Assembly: GCA_002414125.1 (NCBI GenBank)
Contig: DHYN01000090.1
Coordinates: 505-5,534 of the forward strand
Source of the DNA: Ruminococcus sp. UBA5129
GTDB taxonomy: Bacteria > Bacillota > Clostridia > Oscillospirales > Ruminococcaceae
Direction of reading: 5' to 3'
DNA: 5,030 nt
The first letter of the stretch is position 1; each line of letters begins with the position of its first letter. A program made the translations under genes and the position numbers. The notes under the pieces are model-generated. The model was not told the DNA's origin. It saw only the letters and a program-made list of their open reading frames with translations, and did no database searches. This document shows, piece by piece, positions 1-5,030 of the stretch.

Positions 1-41
1 TTTTAAGAAATCAATCAACTTTTTATGAATTATGTGTTGCC

Positions 42-1256
42 TTAAATTACAAAATGCTGCGGCATTCCGTTTTTCATGATCGGAGGAAGCTCGCCCTGAA
101 TGAGCGGCATAACGTAGTCTATCGCCTCCTGAGTTACATCGTTTCCGTTGGGGGTGATCCATTCTTTCGGAAAAAACTTCTCTCCGTTCGCTGTGAGCTG
201 AGCCGAGACCGATCCGATCTCATAGCTGTACGGCGCGTTTCCGAGACGTTTATATGTCATCATTACACCTGTCTGACCGCTGAGACCTGCCTCGACAGCC
301 GCCTCGCCGATCGCCTCCGACTCCTCAATATCCGTCAGAGATGATATATGCGAGCTGCATCTCTGCATTACGTTCAGCTCAATCGACCTTACCTTGCATC
401 CGATGCGGTCGGAAACAAGCTGCTCGAGATACTTGCCGACTCCCGAAAGATACGCATGACCGAAAGCATCGGTCTTGGCGGACTGAAATTCCTCAGCCGC
501 AAATCTGCCGTCAGCGGTGCGGACTCCCTCGGAAACAACGGTGATAACAGCCTTATGAAGCTTCATCTGTGCTTTTATGTCCTCGATAAATTTATCTGCG
601 CTAAAGCATGTCTCGGGAAGGTAAATAAGGTGCGGAGCGCTCTCTCCGTTCTCTCTGAGCGCGGCGGAGGAAGCCGTCAGCCAGCCTGCATGTCGTCCCA
701 TAGCCTCAATAATCGTCACGGAGGGCAGGTTGTAAACGTTGCTGTCACGCGTGATCTCCTGCACTGTCATTGCGACATATTTCGCAGCAGAGCCGAATCC
801 CGGACAGTGATCTGTTTCACAAAGGTCGTTGTCGATCGTTTTCGGAACGCCGATGACCTTTATGTCAATTTGGTTATCAATAAAATATGCCGAGAGCTTA
901 GCGACCGTATCCATCGAATCATTTCCGCCTATATAGAGGAAAAGTCCTATATCATGCCGACGGAAGCATTCCGTAATTTTCTCGTAGACCTCTATATCCG
1001 TGCGATAGTCGCAAAGCTTGTGCCGACATGATCCGAGCGCTGCCGAGGGAGTTCTCCTCAGAAGCTCAAGATCATCATCACACTTGATATATTCGGAAAG
1101 GTCGATCAGCTCATCCTTGAGGATACCCTCGATACCGTTCATAGAGCCATAGACCGTCCCGATCGCTCCCGAGCGGATGCCTGCCTTGAACACCCCTGCA
1201 AGTGAGGCGTTTATCGCACATGTCGGACCTCCGGATTGTGCTGCTGCTATGTTCAT
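42..1256 (-). CDS. pfp: 6-phosphofructokinase, probably pyrophosphate-dependent
   Basis: A 404-residue phosphofructokinase that should interconvert fructose 6-phosphate and fructose 1,6-bisphosphate in cytosolic glycolysis/gluconeogenesis. The N-terminal phosphate-binding loop AQSGGPTCAIN is at residues 6-16. GGNDS is at 110-114, PKTIDND at 138-144 with the catalytic Asp142, MGRHAGW at 186-192, and YLPE at 212-215. The Asp after the GGN (Asp113) and Lys139 in PKTIDND are the known markers of pyrophosphate-linked enzymes; ATP enzymes have GGDGS and PGTIDND. Length suits the single-domain PPi-type family. The frame stays open to a TTG at 1319, but I chose the ATG at 1256: AGGGTGA lies four bases upstream and homologues start next to AQSGGP. 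It follows the HAD gene on the same strand after 180 bp and has its own promoter and a palindromic leader. Asn112 replaces the usual Asp. The family call is very sure; the phosphate-donor call is inferred from two residues. Confidence 0.95.
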   Translation of the reverse strand: MNIAAAQSGGPTCAINASLAGVFKAGIRSGAIGTVYGSMNGIEGILKDELIDLSEYIKCDDDLELLRRTPSAALGSCRHKLCDYRTDIEVYEKITECFRRHDIGLFLYIGGNDSMDTVAKLSAYFIDNQIDIKVIGVPKTIDNDLCETDHCPGFGSAAKYVAMTVQEITRDSNVYNLPSVTIIEAMGRHAGWLTASSAALRENGESAPHLIYLPETCFSADKFIEDIKAQMKLHKAVITVVSEGVRTADGRFAAEEFQSAKTDAFGHAYLSGVGKYLEQLVSDRIGCKVRSIELNVMQRCSSHISSLTDIEESEAIGEAAVEAGLSGQTGVMMTYKRLGNAPYSYEIGSVSAQLTANGEKFFPKEWITPNGNDVTQEAIDYVMPLIQGELPPIMKNGMPQHFVI

Positions 1257-1260
1257 AAAA

Positions 1261-1267
1261 TCACCCT
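1261..1267 (-). promoter_or_regulatory. Ribosome binding site fixing the phosphofructokinase start
   Basis: On the minus strand AGGGTGA lies four bases before the ATG at 1256. The in-frame upstream starts (ATG at 1301, ATG at 1313, TTG at 1319) have no comparable site, so the protein is placed at 404 residues. Confidence 0.75.
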
Positions 1268-1309
1268 GCAAAAAGCCTGATGCTCTCGCTTTTCCTTTCA
1301 TATAATAGG

Positions 1310-1335
1310 GCATGTCCAAAAATTTTTAGACATGC
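1310..1335. promoter_or_regulatory. 26-bp palindrome in the phosphofructokinase leader (putative operator)
   Basis: GCATGTC (1310-1316) and GACATGC (1329-1335) are perfect inverted arms around a self-complementary AAAAATTTTT core (1318-1327). The only mismatched pair is 1317/1328. It lies about 5 to 31 bases downstream of the predicted transcription start of the phosphofructokinase gene. That position fits a roadblock operator for a dimeric repressor; a 5' mRNA hairpin is also possible. No T-run follows on either strand, so it is not a terminator. I do not recognise the motif as a known Clostridia operator. Structure is seen; function is inferred. Confidence 0.55.
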
Positions 1336-1346
1336 TATACATTTAA

Positions 1347-1375
1347 ATTATAACACAGATCATACCAATTCTCAA
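1347..1375 (-). promoter_or_regulatory. Sigma-A-type promoter for phosphofructokinase
   Basis: On the minus strand, a -35 TTGAGA (1375-1370) and a perfect -10 TATAAT (1352-1347) are separated by exactly 17 bases. The predicted start is near 1340, giving a leader of about 85 bases that contains the palindrome. The promoter sits between the HAD stop codon and the phosphofructokinase start, so the gene can be expressed separately from the HAD gene. No clear terminator separates the two, so readthrough from upstream is also possible. Confidence 0.85.
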
Positions 1376-1436
1376 TCAAGCATAATGACGTTTTATTTAT
1401 ACATTTTTCGTATATTTTTGACAAAAACTTCAAAAC

Positions 1437-2225
1437 TCAGATTATCCCGTAATGCGCAAGCGCCTGCTCGATACCATCCTCCAGGATCGGTGCTGTAACA
1501 TATGCAACATAGGGGTAAAGCGCCTCTCCGCCGCCCATTGCTATGCTGTTTGGAACAGCCTTGAGCATCGGCAGATCGTTCATACTGTCACCGATCGCAT
1601 AGGCGTTTTCGATCGGTATTCCGTACATTTTGAGCACTCGCTCGATTCCTGTAGCCTTGCTGCACCCAAGAGGAACATTCTCATAAAAACCGCCGCCTCG
1701 GTCGATGATCGAGAAATTCTTCCCTATCAGCTCACGAAACCTCAGCATATCGGTGTTTTCGTCAGTGAATATCACAAATTTATCGAAGCTGAAATCCTCC
1801 TCGTCACTGAATCTGTCGGTCGGTATACTACTGTCGAGAAACACCGATCTAAAGAGGTTTATCGAGGGATGCTCATCAAACATTCTCTCGAAAAACAACG
1901 TATCACGGCGCTCGTAAACAGGAATGCAGCCGCACTCCCTAAGCTGAGCGGCAGTCTCACGGCAGAATTCATGCGAAAGATCGGAGTAAAACCGCTCCTC
2001 TCCGCCGATCTCGATGTATGTTCCGCATCCGCATATGAACCCGTCAAAGCCAAGCTCGCGTATCTCATCACCGACAATGAAGCGAGTCCTGCCGGTATTG
2101 ACGAACAAAAGATTGCCGTTCTCACGAGCTTTCGAGAGCGCACGGCGAGTACTGTCCGGAATGATTTTGAACTCGTCCTCGGTGACGAGCGTTCCGTCAA
2201 TGTCAAAGAAAACTATTTTTTTCAT
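1437..2225 (-). CDS. HAD-superfamily phosphatase, Cof type (class IIB cap)
   Basis: A 262-residue cytosolic Mg2+-dependent hydrolase, likely a sugar-phosphate or related small-metabolite phosphatase; the exact substrate cannot be read from sequence. All four HAD motifs are visible. Motif I is DIDGTL at 8-13 (nucleophile Asp8, acid/base Asp10), motif II is NTGR at 43-46 (Thr44), motif III is Lys190 in GCSKATGI, and motif IV is GDSMND at 212-217 (Asp213, Asp217). The long insert between motifs II and III is the C2 cap of the Cof/IIB group, and the length is typical. The start is the ATG at 2225, preceded by GGAGGT; the upstream TTG at 2237 is part of that ribosome-site region itself. It has a consensus promoter and lies upstream of phosphofructokinase on the same strand, which loosely suggests sugar-phosphate metabolism. 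Family certain, substrate unknown. Confidence 0.95.
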   Translation of the reverse strand: MKKIVFFDIDGTLVTEDEFKIIPDSTRRALSKARENGNLLFVNTGRTRFIVGDEIRELGFDGFICGCGTYIEIGGEERFYSDLSHEFCRETAAQLRECGCIPVYERRDTLFFERMFDEHPSINLFRSVFLDSSIPTDRFSDEEDFSFDKFVIFTDENTDMLRFRELIGKNFSIIDRGGGFYENVPLGCSKATGIERVLKMYGIPIENAYAIGDSMNDLPMLKAVPNSIAMGGGEALYPYVAYVTAPILEDGIEQALAHYGII

Positions 2226-2229
2226 AGTG

Positions 2230-2235
2230 ACCTCC
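2230..2235 (-). promoter_or_regulatory. Ribosome binding site of the HAD gene
   Basis: On the minus strand GGAGGT lies four bases before the ATG at 2225. It decides the start: an in-frame TTG at 2237 would place this site inside the coding region. Confidence 0.85.
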
Positions 2236-2253
2236 AATCTGAAATCCGATTAA

Positions 2254-2282
2254 ATTATACCTCTTTTAGACCGTACTGTCAA
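2254..2282 (-). promoter_or_regulatory. Consensus sigma-A promoter of the HAD gene
   Basis: On the minus strand, a perfect -35 TTGACA (2282-2277) and a perfect -10 TATAAT (2259-2254) with a 17-base spacer. The predicted start is near 2247, leaving a leader of only about 22 bases. A promoter this strong normally needs a repressor to be silent; a palindrome covers its -35 box. Confidence 0.92.
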
Positions 2283-2288
2283 GACAGT
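2275..2288. promoter_or_regulatory. Palindrome over the HAD -35 box (putative operator)
   Basis: ACTGTCAAGACAGT is a perfect 6+6 inverted repeat around a 2-base centre and contains most of the -35 hexamer of the HAD promoter. A bound repressor would block polymerase. The GACAGT half-site also occurs in the ACTCTACCGACAGT elements further right (2356-2361 and 2486-2491), which hints at a shared regulator. This is inference from symmetry and position. Confidence 0.45.
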
Positions 2289-2345
2289 GAAGCTGCTGCA
2301 CCACGGCAAAATCCGTCTCAACACTTGCGAGAAAGCGCGTTTTTT

Positions 2346-2491
2346 GAACTCTACCGACAGTTTACATGCGGTAGATTCGGCACAAAATTTTCGGAGTATT
2401 TTCCTATATACCGTAACTCTACTGGTGGTAGAGTCCTTTTTTCGGACTCTACCGCAGTGTTTTCAACGGTTTACACGACTCTCCCGACAGT
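2346..2491. repeat. Cluster of four ACTCTACCGACAGT-like elements with hairpins
   Basis: Four direct copies of a 14-base element lie at 2348-2361 (ACTCTACCGACAGT), 2416-2429 (ACTCTACTGGTGGT), 2446-2458 (ACTCTACCGCAGT) and 2478-2491 (ACTCTCCCGACAGT). Inverted partial copies are at 2369-2375 (CGGTAGA) and 2427-2436 (GGTAGAGTCC). The last three copies are 30 and 32 bases apart, about three helical turns, and the last ends four bases before the -35 box of the downstream membrane-protein gene. The inverted copies produce three hairpins. The cluster fills most of the divergent intergenic region and is most likely a multi-site regulator-binding region; a structured RNA is the alternative. Confidence 0.6.
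2416..2453 (+). other. Two overlapping, mutually exclusive hairpins
   Basis: Hairpin 1 pairs ACTCTAC (2416-2422) with GTAGAGT (2428-2434) over a 5-base loop and is followed by CC and six T, like a short plus-strand terminator. Hairpin 2 pairs GGTAGAGTCC (2427-2436) with GGACTCTACC (2444-2453) and loops out the T-run. Both need 2428-2434, so only one can form at a time, as in attenuators. I find no convincing plus-strand promoter upstream, and the membrane-protein gene has its promoter downstream at 2495, so attenuation is unproven. DNA-level operator sites remain likely. Confidence 0.5.
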
Positions 2492-2494
2492 AGG

Positions 2495-2523
2495 TTGATA
2501 AATCGCTTGAACATGGTTATAAT
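2495..2523 (+). promoter_or_regulatory. Sigma-A-type promoter of the TrhA-family gene
   Basis: A -35 TTGATA (2495-2500) and a perfect -10 TATAAT (2518-2523) with a 17-base spacer. The predicted start is near 2530, giving a leader of about 30 bases. The repeat element at 2478-2491 abuts the -35 box, a place suited to an activator or a blocking repressor. Confidence 0.88.
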
Positions 2524-2546
2524 AAAGACAGAAAATAATTTCCCAT

Positions 2547-2552
2547 GGAGGT
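2547..2552 (+). promoter_or_regulatory. Ribosome binding site fixing the TrhA-family start
   Basis: GGAGGT lies seven bases before the ATG at 2560. An in-frame ATG at 2545 overlaps this site by one base and has no ribosome site of its own, so the start is taken as 2560. Confidence 0.85.
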
Positions 2553-2559
2553 AAAATTT

Positions 2560-3231
2560 ATGCAGCGTACTAAATTATGTGACCGGGTCCTTCCCGACTA
2601 CACTCACGGCGAAGAGGTATTCAACACAGCTTCACACATCACGGGAGCGGCTCTCGGAGTTGTCGCACTCATTCTCTGCCTGCTGCTTGCCGTATCGCAC
2701 AACAGCGTCTACTCGGTAGTCGGCAGCGCGATCTACGGCGCATCACTTATAGTATTATACACAATGTCGAGCGTATACCATGGACTGCGTCCGAATATGG
2801 CGAAAAAAGTCATGCAGATAATCGACCACTGCACGATCTATTTCCTCATCGCAGGCAGCTATACTCCTATTCTGCTGTGCGCGGTCAGACGTGTCTCACC
2901 TGCTTACGCATGGACCCTTTTCGGCATAGTTTGGGGAGTTTCCCTCATTGCAGCCACTTTCACTGCGATCGACCTCGAAAAATACAACAAGCTCTCTCAG
3001 GCATGCTACATCGGACTCGGCTGGTGCATCGTCATCGCTTTCAAACCAACCATGCAGGCTATCGACTTCACCGGCGTAATGCTCCTGCTTGCGGGCGGGA
3101 TCGCCTATACGGTGGGAGCTGTGCTCTATGCGCTCGGTGAGAAGATCCGCTATATGCACTCGGTTTTCCACGTTTTTGTTGTGCTCGGCAGCATTCTTCA
3201 ATTCTTCTGTATCTTCTTTTATGTCATTTGA
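2560..3231 (+). CDS. trhA: Hemolysin III / TrhA family membrane protein (PAQR-like)
   Basis: A 223-residue integral membrane protein of the hemolysin III/PAQR family, related to eukaryotic adiponectin receptors. Seven hydrophobic segments fall at about 27-47, 50-69, 84-107, 115-133, 145-162, 170-190 and 201-222. The family signature residues are present: EEVFNTASH (18-26), SSVYHG (70-75), IDHCTIYFLIAGSYTP (88-103), and the C-terminal HSVFH (200-204). Ser70, His74, Asp89, His200 and His204 fit the buried Zn2+-site pattern of PAQR proteins. Bacterial members are linked to membrane fluidity homeostasis; the 'hemolysin' name is historical and does not by itself imply virulence. The gene stands alone, with its own promoter and terminator, and is divergent from the HAD gene across a repeat-rich regulatory region. 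Family certain; cellular role inferred from homologues. Confidence 0.95.
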   Translation: MQRTKLCDRVLPDYTHGEEVFNTASHITGAALGVVALILCLLLAVSHNSVYSVVGSAIYGASLIVLYTMSSVYHGLRPNMAKKVMQIIDHCTIYFLIAGSYTPILLCAVRRVSPAYAWTLFGIVWGVSLIAATFTAIDLEKYNKLSQACYIGLGWCIVIAFKPTMQAIDFTGVMLLLAGGIAYTVGAVLYALGEKIRYMHSVFHVFVVLGSILQFFCIFFYVI

Positions 3232-3247
3232 TCGAGTATATTTCTAC

Positions 3248-3281
3248 AAAGAAGCTTTCGTGTTTCGGAAGCTTCTTTTTA
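3248..3281 (+). terminator. Rho-independent terminator of the TrhA-family gene
   Basis: Bases 3248-3260 pair with 3266-3278 in a 13-bp stem (one G-T wobble) around the 5-base loop TGTTT, running into a T-tract ending at 3280. It starts 17 bases after the stop codon and ends the single-gene transcript. Confidence 0.9.
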
Positions 3282-3352
3282 TTAACACGACAATAGATAC
3301 ATCTTTTGGCAAAAAATCCGAGAACAAAGTATCCGATAAACGTCCGAATATT

Positions 3353-3399
3353 GGATAAAAAGAAGCAAATGCTGTTGCCTATATTGTTTAGCATTTGCT
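3353..3399 (-). terminator. Orphan minus-strand terminator-like hairpin
   Basis: AGCAAATGCT (3364-3373) and AGCATTTGCT (3390-3399) form a perfect 10-bp stem with a 16-base loop. Read on the minus strand the stem is followed by TC, TTTTT and ATCC, as in an intrinsic terminator; on the plus strand no T-run follows. No minus-strand gene is recognisable upstream of it, so it either ends an unannotated minus-strand RNA, stops antisense transcription, or is a relic. Confidence 0.5.
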
Positions 3400-3432
3400 A
3401 CGCTTTGCTTGAACTTGCTTAGCAAACTTAGG

Positions 3433-3509
3433 TGATAATGATATTGATATTGATAATGTAAAATGATAATGAGAATGTAAATGAAGATGCAAATGATAAT
3501 GATAATGTG
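3433..3509. repeat. Degenerate TGATAA hexanucleotide repeat, 13 units
   Basis: TG recurs every six bases at 3433, 3439, 3445, 3451, 3457, then after one 7-base step at 3464, 3470, 3476, 3482, 3488, 3494, 3500 and 3506. The common units are TGATAA and TGATAT, with variants such as TGTAAA, TGAGAA, TGAAGA and TGCAAA. The plus strand is full of stops. The minus strand is open and would give an Ile/His/Tyr-rich peptide, but it has no ribosome site or protein-like composition, so I treat it as non-coding. It probably arose by slippage. Confidence 0.75.
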
Positions 3510-3576
3510 CGGTGTTGAAACATGTTGAAACTGTTGAAAAGTGGTGAAAGCATCTTCTTGACACCGCATTCTTTTT
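3483..3576 (+). other. Two crossing 8-bp pairings (possible pseudoknot) before a T-run
   Basis: GAAGATGC (3483-3490) is complementary to GCATCTTC (3550-3557), and TGCGGTGT (3508-3515) to ACACCGCA (3561-3568). The pairs interleave, which is the topology of an H-type pseudoknot with loops of 17, 34 and 3 bases; otherwise they are competing long-range stems. The second is followed by TTC and five T, so it could act as a weak terminator. No clear promoter for an RNA here was found. Complementarity is seen; an RNA is inference. Confidence 0.35.
3513..3550. repeat. Four tandem TGTTGAAA units of 9-10 bp
   Basis: TGTTGAAACA (3513-3522), TGTTGAAAC (3523-3531), TGTTGAAAAG (3532-3541) and TGGTGAAAG (3542-3550) lie head to tail. 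The ~9.5-base period puts every unit on nearly the same DNA face. It directly follows the hexanucleotide tract and ends 28 bases before the -35 box of the topoisomerase gene, so it may be an array of protein-binding sites or the loop of a structured RNA. Confidence 0.65.
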
Positions 3577-3577
3577 A

Positions 3578-3606
3578 TTGACTTTCGTTTTGTGATATGG
3601 TATAAT
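3578..3606 (+). promoter_or_regulatory. Sigma-A-type promoter of the topoisomerase-like gene
   Basis: A -35 TTGACT (3578-3583) and a perfect -10 TATAAT (3601-3606) with a 17-base spacer. The predicted start is near 3613, giving a leader of about 32 bases. It lies just downstream of the repeat-rich stretch. Confidence 0.9.
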
Positions 3607-3629
3607 TACAATAATTGTTTATTTTTAGA

Positions 3630-3635
3630 AAGGAG
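3630..3635 (+). promoter_or_regulatory. Ribosome binding site of the topoisomerase-like gene
   Basis: AAGGAG lies nine bases before the ATG at 3645 and selects that codon over an in-frame TTG at 3615, which sits at the predicted transcription start. Confidence 0.85.
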
Positions 3636-3644
3636 CTTTATCCA

Positions 3645-4985
3645 ATGGCGAAGAAAAACGACTACGGAAACGAAAGCATCACCATGCTCAAGGGCGCCGA
3701 TAAGGTGCGCAAGCGTCCTGCGGTCATATTCGGCTCGGACGGTCTTGACGGCTGTGAGCACTCCATTTTCGAGGTCATATCTAACTCTATCGACGAGGCT
3801 CGCTCGGGATACGGAAATAAGATTATCATCACCCACTACCGCGACCACTGCATCGAGGTCGAGGACTTCGGCAGAGGCTGTCCGGTAGATTATAACAGTG
3901 TCGAAAAGCGCTATAACTGGGAGCTTGTCTACTGTGAGCTTTATGCCGGAGGAAAGTACGATGCTTCTGCGGATTCTTATGAGTATTCGCTCGGTCTGAA
4001 CGGTCTCGGTCTTTGTGCGACTCAGTTCGCTTCGGAATTCATGGACGTTGAGGTAGTCCGTGACGGATTCAGATATTCGCTCCACTTTGAGAAAGGCGAG
4101 AATGTGGGCGGTCTCGCAAAGGAGACGTCCAAACGCAAGCAGACAGGCACTAAGACGCGCTGGCGTCCCGACCTTGACGTGTTCACCGATATTGACGTTT
4201 CGGACGAGTATTTCTGCGACATCCTCAAGCGTCAGGCTGTCGTTAATCCGAATATACTCTTTGTTTTCCGCTCCGAGAACGAAAACGGCAAATTCGATGA
4301 GCAGGAGTTCATCTACGAAAACGGCATCACCGACTACGTTACTGAGATAGTCGGCGACAAGGCTCTCACCTCGATCCAGCACTGGTCTGCCGACAGAAAA
4401 GGCCGCGACCGCGAGGACAAGCCCGAATACAAGGTGAAGCTCGATGTTGCGGTGACGTTCTCCAACCTCGTTAAAAAAATCGAATACTATCACAACTCAA
4501 GCTTCCTCGAACACGGCGGTTCACCCGAGCGTGCCGTGAAGCAGGCTTTCCAGTCGCAGATAGACGCCTATCTGAAAGCAAATAACGGCTATAACAAGAA
4601 CGAATCCAAGATCACCTACGGCGATATCGAGGAGTGTCTGGTACTCGTTTCATCCTCGTTCTCCACTCAGACCTCCTACGAGAACCAAACCAAAAAGGCG
4701 ATCACTAACAAGTTCGTCTACGAGGCAATGACGGATTTTCTAAAGCATAATATCGAGGTCTACTTCCTCGAAAATCCGGATGAAGCCGAAAAGATCGCAA
4801 AGCAGGTGCTCATCAACAAGAGAAGCCGCGAAAACGCAGAGAAGATCCGTCAGAATACAAGAAAAAAGCTCTCGGGAACGATCGACCTCTCCAATATGGT
4901 CGAGAAATTCGTTGACTGCCGTACCAAGGACACCTCCCGCCGCGAGATCTATATCGTGATCGCCTTTTTGGTTTGGTTCTCGTAG
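3645..4985 (+). CDS. Type IIA topoisomerase B-subunit paralogue (GyrB/ParE-like), broken at the TOPRIM border
   Basis: This is the ATPase and transducer half of a GyrB/ParE-like subunit, which would supply ATP-driven strand passage with a GyrA/ParC-type partner not seen here. GHKL motifs are present: VRKRPAVIFG (21-30), FEVISNSIDEA (42-52, with Glu43, Asn47 and Asp50), EDFGRG (73-78), AGGKYD (101-106) and the ATP-lid GLNGLG (117-122). The transducer carries the QTK loop (348-350) that contacts the ATP gamma-phosphate. The sequence is diverged from housekeeping GyrB, for example HGGSPERAV (290-298) where EGGTH is expected, so it looks like an extra paralogue. The native frame runs to REIYI (433-437); IVEGDSA of the TOPRIM domain should follow. 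Instead the last eight residues (IAFLVWFS) and the stop are read from an inverted copy of the gene's own QTK region. The 446-residue product is therefore not a real C-terminus. Confidence 0.88.
   Translation: MAKKNDYGNESITMLKGADKVRKRPAVIFGSDGLDGCEHSIFEVISNSIDEARSGYGNKIIITHYRDHCIEVEDFGRGCPVDYNSVEKRYNWELVYCELYAGGKYDASADSYEYSLGLNGLGLCATQFASEFMDVEVVRDGFRYSLHFEKGENVGGLAKETSKRKQTGTKTRWRPDLDVFTDIDVSDEYFCDILKRQAVVNPNILFVFRSENENGKFDEQEFIYENGITDYVTEIVGDKALTSIQHWSADRKGRDREDKPEYKVKLDVAVTFSNLVKKIEYYHNSSFLEHGGSPERAVKQAFQSQIDAYLKANNGYNKNESKITYGDIEECLVLVSSSFSTQTSYENQTKKAITNKFVYEAMTDFLKHNIEVYFLENPDEAEKIAKQVLINKRSRENAEKIRQNTRKKLSGTIDLSNMVEKFVDCRTKDTSRREIYIVIAFLVWFS
4631..4705 (+). repeat. Original arm of a 75-bp perfect inverted repeat
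   Basis: This stretch encodes about residues 329-354 of the topoisomerase-like protein, including the QTK loop. It is in its native reading frame and is exactly complementary to the last 75 bases of the window, with 4631 pairing to 5030 and 4705 to 4956. The arms are 250 bases apart. Confidence 0.97.
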
Positions 4986-5030
4986 GAGGTCTGAGTGGAG
5001 AACGAGGATGAAACGAGTACCAGACACTCC
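4956..5030 (-). repeat. Inverted copy of 4631-4705 at the window end (likely fold-back chimera)
   Basis: All 75 bases are the exact reverse complement of 4631-4705, and identity continues to the last base, so the copy may extend further. The join is at 4955/4956. A native GTG/GTC valine codon (of IVEGDSA) would share the first bases, so a short microhomology at the junction is possible. The copy interrupts the topoisomerase frame. Perfect identity without any drift, a position at the sequence edge, and a product that destroys a conserved motif all favour an amplification or assembly chimera over a biological rearrangement. Confidence 0.95.

Follow-up and report, generated by a model that had tools for sequence, protein, structure and literature searches.

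The window analysed here, a stretch of 5,030 nucleotides, corresponds to positions 505-5534 of contig C115, which is 5,534 bp in length, so that the end of the window is also the terminus of the contig. Pfam scans of the four gene-like ORFs (out of 25 listed) identify a phosphofructokinase, a HAD hydrolase, a HlyIII/TrhA-type membrane protein and a topoisomerase subunit. This order (window 42-4955, with topoisomerase B last) recurs in one of the 80 related loci (L007), some of the 80 having too little upstream DNA for their order to be judged. In the interval from the HlyIII-type gene to the topoisomerase gene, a degenerate TGATAATG-rich repeat lies at 3433-3511. The features that concern us, most of them within the last of these genes, are as follows:

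3645-4985, plus strand: 446-codon ORF of a GyrB/ParE-like type IIA topoisomerase B subunit, with native sequence as far as about 4958 and antisense codons ending in a stop beyond it (from Pfam, NCBIfam and relatives)
4631-4705, plus strand: inner arm of an exact inverted repeat, native topoisomerase B coding sequence through which protein and DNA alignments to relatives pass
4706-4955, plus strand: 250-base loop, native coding sequence, with alignments to relatives likewise passing through
4956-5030, plus strand: outer arm, an alien reverse-complement copy of 4631-4705 that reaches the final base of the contig (from the inverted repeat and the loss of identity to relatives)
4956-4958, plus strand: GTG at the join that fits both the native gene and the inverted copy (from comparison with L007 and C55)
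1-22, plus strand: 22-base inverted repeat of C115 284-305, an assembly scar of the same class, both copies of which abut N gaps

Judged from its domain content, the ORF beginning at 3645 codes for the N-terminal half of a GyrB/ParE-like topoisomerase B subunit of type IIA. Its 446 codons are counted from an ATG at 3645, the same frame also opening at a TTG at 3615. The Pfam DNA_gyraseB domain (PF00204), by which we recognize a type IIA B subunit, is present in this half at residues 227-403 of the 446-residue ORF (E = 4.4e-30), and the NCBIfam GyrB/ParE models match the half-length protein with scores under their curated cut-offs. TOPRIM is the catalytic metal-binding motif of the enzyme. Neither it nor the C-terminal domain gives a Pfam match in the window frame up to 4955, and the codons past the join are antisense; both the Toprim and the gyrase B C-terminal domains are present in the intact relative L007, where the Toprim match begins at residue 434, and in a further copy on contig C55. 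Across the join the window frame runs through IYIV and then into IAFLVWFS followed by a stop.

Positions 4956-5030 are the exact reverse complement of 4631-4705, with arms of 75 nt that are 100% complementary and a spacer of 250 nt, which bears out the 75-bp perfect repeat spaced by 250 bases that an earlier note on this DNA had described. In 200 mononucleotide shuffles of the window, scored for the longest exact inverted repeat with palindromes counted in, the maximum was 22 bases, so that a repeat with 75-nt arms is not attributable to chance. As the window and the contig share one end, the inverted copy occupies the final 75 bases of C115 and terminates at an assembly edge; position 5030 is the terminal base, and there is no sequence beyond it into which the copy might be followed. 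The other end of the window also borders a break, with positions 1-22 (C115 505-526) forming the rim of a gap of 10 N and their partner at C115 284-305 abutting a gap of 54 N.

The locus was compared with the best 80 of 560 related loci found with the topoisomerase protein. The best of these are from Oscillospiraceae, mostly in records titled Ruminococcus, and represent other species rather than the same strain. At the join all 80 carry the motif [IL]YIVEGDSALG[SA], where the window has IYIVIAFLVWFS. In the 74 bases that end at 4955 the window shares 68-88% identity (median 80%) with the 80 relatives, and in the 75 bases past it the figure drops to 25-43% (median 33%). Downstream of the join 78 of the 80 continue for 221-222 codons to a stop, and the remaining two (L024 and L047) run off the locus. 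The intact motif in every relative and the drop in identity past 4955 together indicate that 4956-5030 is alien, except for the GTG at 4956-4958; the first base that is necessarily alien is thus 4959. Comparison with related genomes was a check that the earlier note had proposed, and its outcome is uniform: in these independent assemblies, albeit of other species, the locus is uninterrupted at the join in 80 of 80 and the inverted copy is found in none. The note's further contention that the start of TOPRIM is replaced by antisense sequence and a stop agrees with the reading frame across the join, with the motif of the relatives and with the Toprim match from residue 434 of L007. TOPRIM and the C-terminal domain are therefore lost at the fold-back, and the 446-residue ORF is no natural truncation; the note's warning on this last point holds, given that the copy lies at the contig terminus and is carried by none of the 80 relatives. 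An ordinary full-length topoisomerase B subunit is very likely what the native gene encodes, its remainder lying on DNA outside this contig.

When the same draft genome was searched at the DNA level with the L007 continuation, the missing half of the gene was not recovered, the sole match being on contig C55. We rejected C55 as the source of that half, as it bears a separate, complete copy with 78.7% amino-acid identity to the half in the window. There a complete B subunit of 651 aa (L006 9838-11793) lies beside an A subunit of 746 aa (L006 11816-14056) in the same bin. Among 59 other genomes, 53 have a match, in one place each besides the inverted arm (in G033 as two adjacent pieces). Set against this single place in other genomes, the second complete B subunit in the bin suggests that the bin may mix two organisms. 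The full-length B subunits of L007 (5001-6974) and C55 likewise score below the NCBIfam curated cut-offs, for GyrB and ParE alike, and the C55 A subunit scores below those for GyrA and ParC; the L007 and C55 subunits perhaps represent a divergent type IIA pair in this genus.

The draft genome comprises 122 contigs and 1.75 Mb, with 64.5% completeness and 2.63% contamination. We surveyed part of it for similar structures, taking both ends of 60 other contigs (2.5 kb from each start and 2.5 kb from each end, or 1.0-1.9 kb at the ends of six short contigs), the whole of C115 and the first 20 kb of C55. Five of the 60 contigs consist entirely of N and were excluded; the total is 290,037 ACGT bases, of which about 3.8 kb is double-counted through overlapping end stretches of eight short contigs. 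We retained exact inverted repeats whose arms measure at least 18 bases and lie no more than 1 kb apart, and dropped two perfect palindromes (18 and 26 bases). All 19 repeats so defined in the 290,037 surveyed bases abut a contig terminus or the edge of an N gap. Their arms are 22 bases long in 16 cases, 75 in two (the ends of C115 and C103) and 69 in one (the start of C41, where a BLAST alignment extends to 73 matches in 75, or 97%, the final matches of which may be due to chance). Among inverted repeats of 14-17 bases, a range in which chance repeats are expected, two of nine abut an edge. Viewed from the edges themselves, the reverse complement of the terminal 22-mer occurs in the same stretch at 22 of 339 block edges (7/113 contig termini and 15/226 gap edges), compared with 5 of 13,350 internal 22-mers; most edges (317/339) have no such copy. 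As a control, the 80 related loci, which come from other records and amount to 807,179 bases, contain 12 such repeats, none of which lies at the edge of a locus or gap; by their coordinates, only 38 of the 160 locus edges are true contig ends. Within the surveyed part of the genome the same structure thus recurs at other edges of the assembly and not elsewhere.

The loops of these repeats are confined to a narrow range. Over all 19 they measure 199-292 bases (mean 262, SD 19), and over 17 they measure 250-292 (mean 267, SD 11) when two pairs, with loops of 199 and 244, are left out; these span N gaps and have both arms at gap edges. The retained pair at C55 1137-1436 (loop 256) also spans a gap, of 2 N, and that at the start of C11 (loop 268) has both arms at edges. 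The C41 loop is 282 when taken from its exact 69-base arms.

Relatives were also aligned to three of the other fold-backs. At C103 they align over the inner arm, and G025 and G027 are also collinear into the first part of the loop; many relatives match the outer arm only in reversed orientation, at the place of their inner arm. Two short, weak matches (G008, E = 7e-5; G040, E = 2.4e-4) begin 6-8 bases before the C103 join and enter the outer arm. At C41 matches come from three of 59 other genomes and cover the query from base 135 onward, and the outer arm is matched only reversed, in G038, within the place of its inner arm. In the 22-base case on C55, the inner arm is crossed by alignments from 25 of 29 other genomes and the outer arm is covered by none, the bases between not being conserved. 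These alignments mostly agree with an alien outer arm in the three cases, at a distance from the joins that is too great for proof. Within the loop of the C103 fold-back, about 38 bases (L228 about 2337-2374) have short matches in several further genomes of the genus, apart from the matches of the neighboring gene; this stretch may be a regulatory sequence that these genomes share, or a dispersed element.

Because all 19 repeats lie at assembly edges and all 80 relatives are uninterrupted at the join, the 75-base inverted copy is likely to be a technical fold-back or assembly error of an ordinary kind, with no real change in the topoisomerase gene. The earlier note had leaned toward a fold-back chimera that arose in amplification or assembly, and the position at the contig terminus, the recurrence at contig ends and N-gap edges and the absence from all 80 relatives support that preference. 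An artefact of one kind or the other, whether from an assembler step or from a library chimera, is close to certain. Of these we favor, with a probability of roughly 0.7, an assembler that lengthened the contig at its end by reusing, in the wrong orientation, sequence it had already assembled. If read pairs guided this extension or a gap-filling step, a reverse-complemented read would be placed about one insert from where it originated, and the narrow loop of about 266 bases would then reflect the paired-read distance; here a 75-base read, an inner distance of 250 bases and a second 75-base place would make up the 400-base span. The 75-base arms resemble an entire read or a longer word, and the fixed 22-base arms resemble an assembler word overlap with k of about 23. 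A word-graph assembler would meet a hairpin node at an overlap of fixed length, which would fit arms of exactly 22 bases. Against a single word length stands the presence of two kinds of arms, of 22 and about 70-75 bases, for which we found no one cause, and against a simple hairpin at one end stand the 3 of 19 cases in which the arms lie on opposite sides of an N gap. A library-preparation chimera, in which the 3' end of a strand primed on itself through the three-base GTG match and was copied back, the assembler then halting at a hairpin in its graph, is the main rival, though a rather unlikely one. Technical palindromes and inverted-repeat chimeras have been reported for amplified and fragmented libraries (PMC6218980, PMC10908179), and a word graph fed by such molecules might also yield a hairpin node with fixed 22-base arms. 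However, the three-base match at the join could have arisen by chance, and loops produced by self-priming would presumably vary widely in size, yet 17 of the 19 fall at 250-292.

Biological explanations fare much worse. The perfect arms would suit a true inverted duplication or an inversion breakpoint inside the topoisomerase gene, in the organism or a subpopulation of it, but such an event would destroy TOPRIM, and there is no biological reason for the copy to stop at the final base of the contig or for the 18 other repeats of the survey all to lie at assembly edges. With every one of these repeats of at least 18 bases at an edge, and with the join intact in all of the best 80 of 560 relatives and inverted in none, we rejected this reading as very improbable. 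Inverted repeats around a 250-base spacer also have the right general shape for a phase-variable segment switched by a recombinase and bounded by the repeats. No recombinase was found among the four gene-like ORFs scanned with Pfam, on a contig of at most 5.5 kb; the arms lie inside coding sequence, and the 80 relatives show a single arrangement at the join, so that we give such a segment practically no credence. Real fold-back duplications in the population, formed in the cell by a template switching that favors loops of about 266 bases, and at which the assembler merely stopped, are hardly more than a formal alternative. The artefact reading removes a false truncated topoisomerase, and of the contig ends sampled in the draft genome about 6% (7/113) bear inverted scars. 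In assemblies of this sort, contig ends and gap edges should be excluded when genes are called or when hairpins and inverted repeats are sought.

Titles and abstract openings in the literature that was searched make no mention of 22-base or 75-base fold-backs at contig ends, though several kinds of technical error come close. In outline, local errors of metagenome assembly, including concatenated identical sequence, are described by Chen et al. 2020 (PMC7111523), who note that some assemblers retain non-unique sequence at scaffold ends, and advise the use of a repeat finder, which exposes related errors. The present case is similar in that unsupported sequence appears where a short-read assembler stops or joins, and in that an incorrect protein-coding gene results; the errors outlined there differ in being unsupported consensus, wrong repeat numbers and concatenated identical sequence rather than inverted copies at contig ends. 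Chimeric reads, as summarized for RegCloser (PMC10265787), lead to erroneous k-mers and false overlaps in gap closing. The chimeras from fragmentation outlined in PMC10908179 resemble our repeats as technical reads that contain inverted-repeat sequence, but are linked there to inverted repeats and palindromes occurring naturally in the human genome, whereas no relative that we examined has the repeat at the join. The artificial palindromes that follow whole-genome amplification, the subject of Pacasus (PMC6218980), likewise join a sequence to its own reverse complement and are of technical origin; those are described from long reads of amplified DNA, whereas the copies seen here are of 22 or 69-75 bases, are separated by a loop of about 266 bases and sit at contig ends and gaps.
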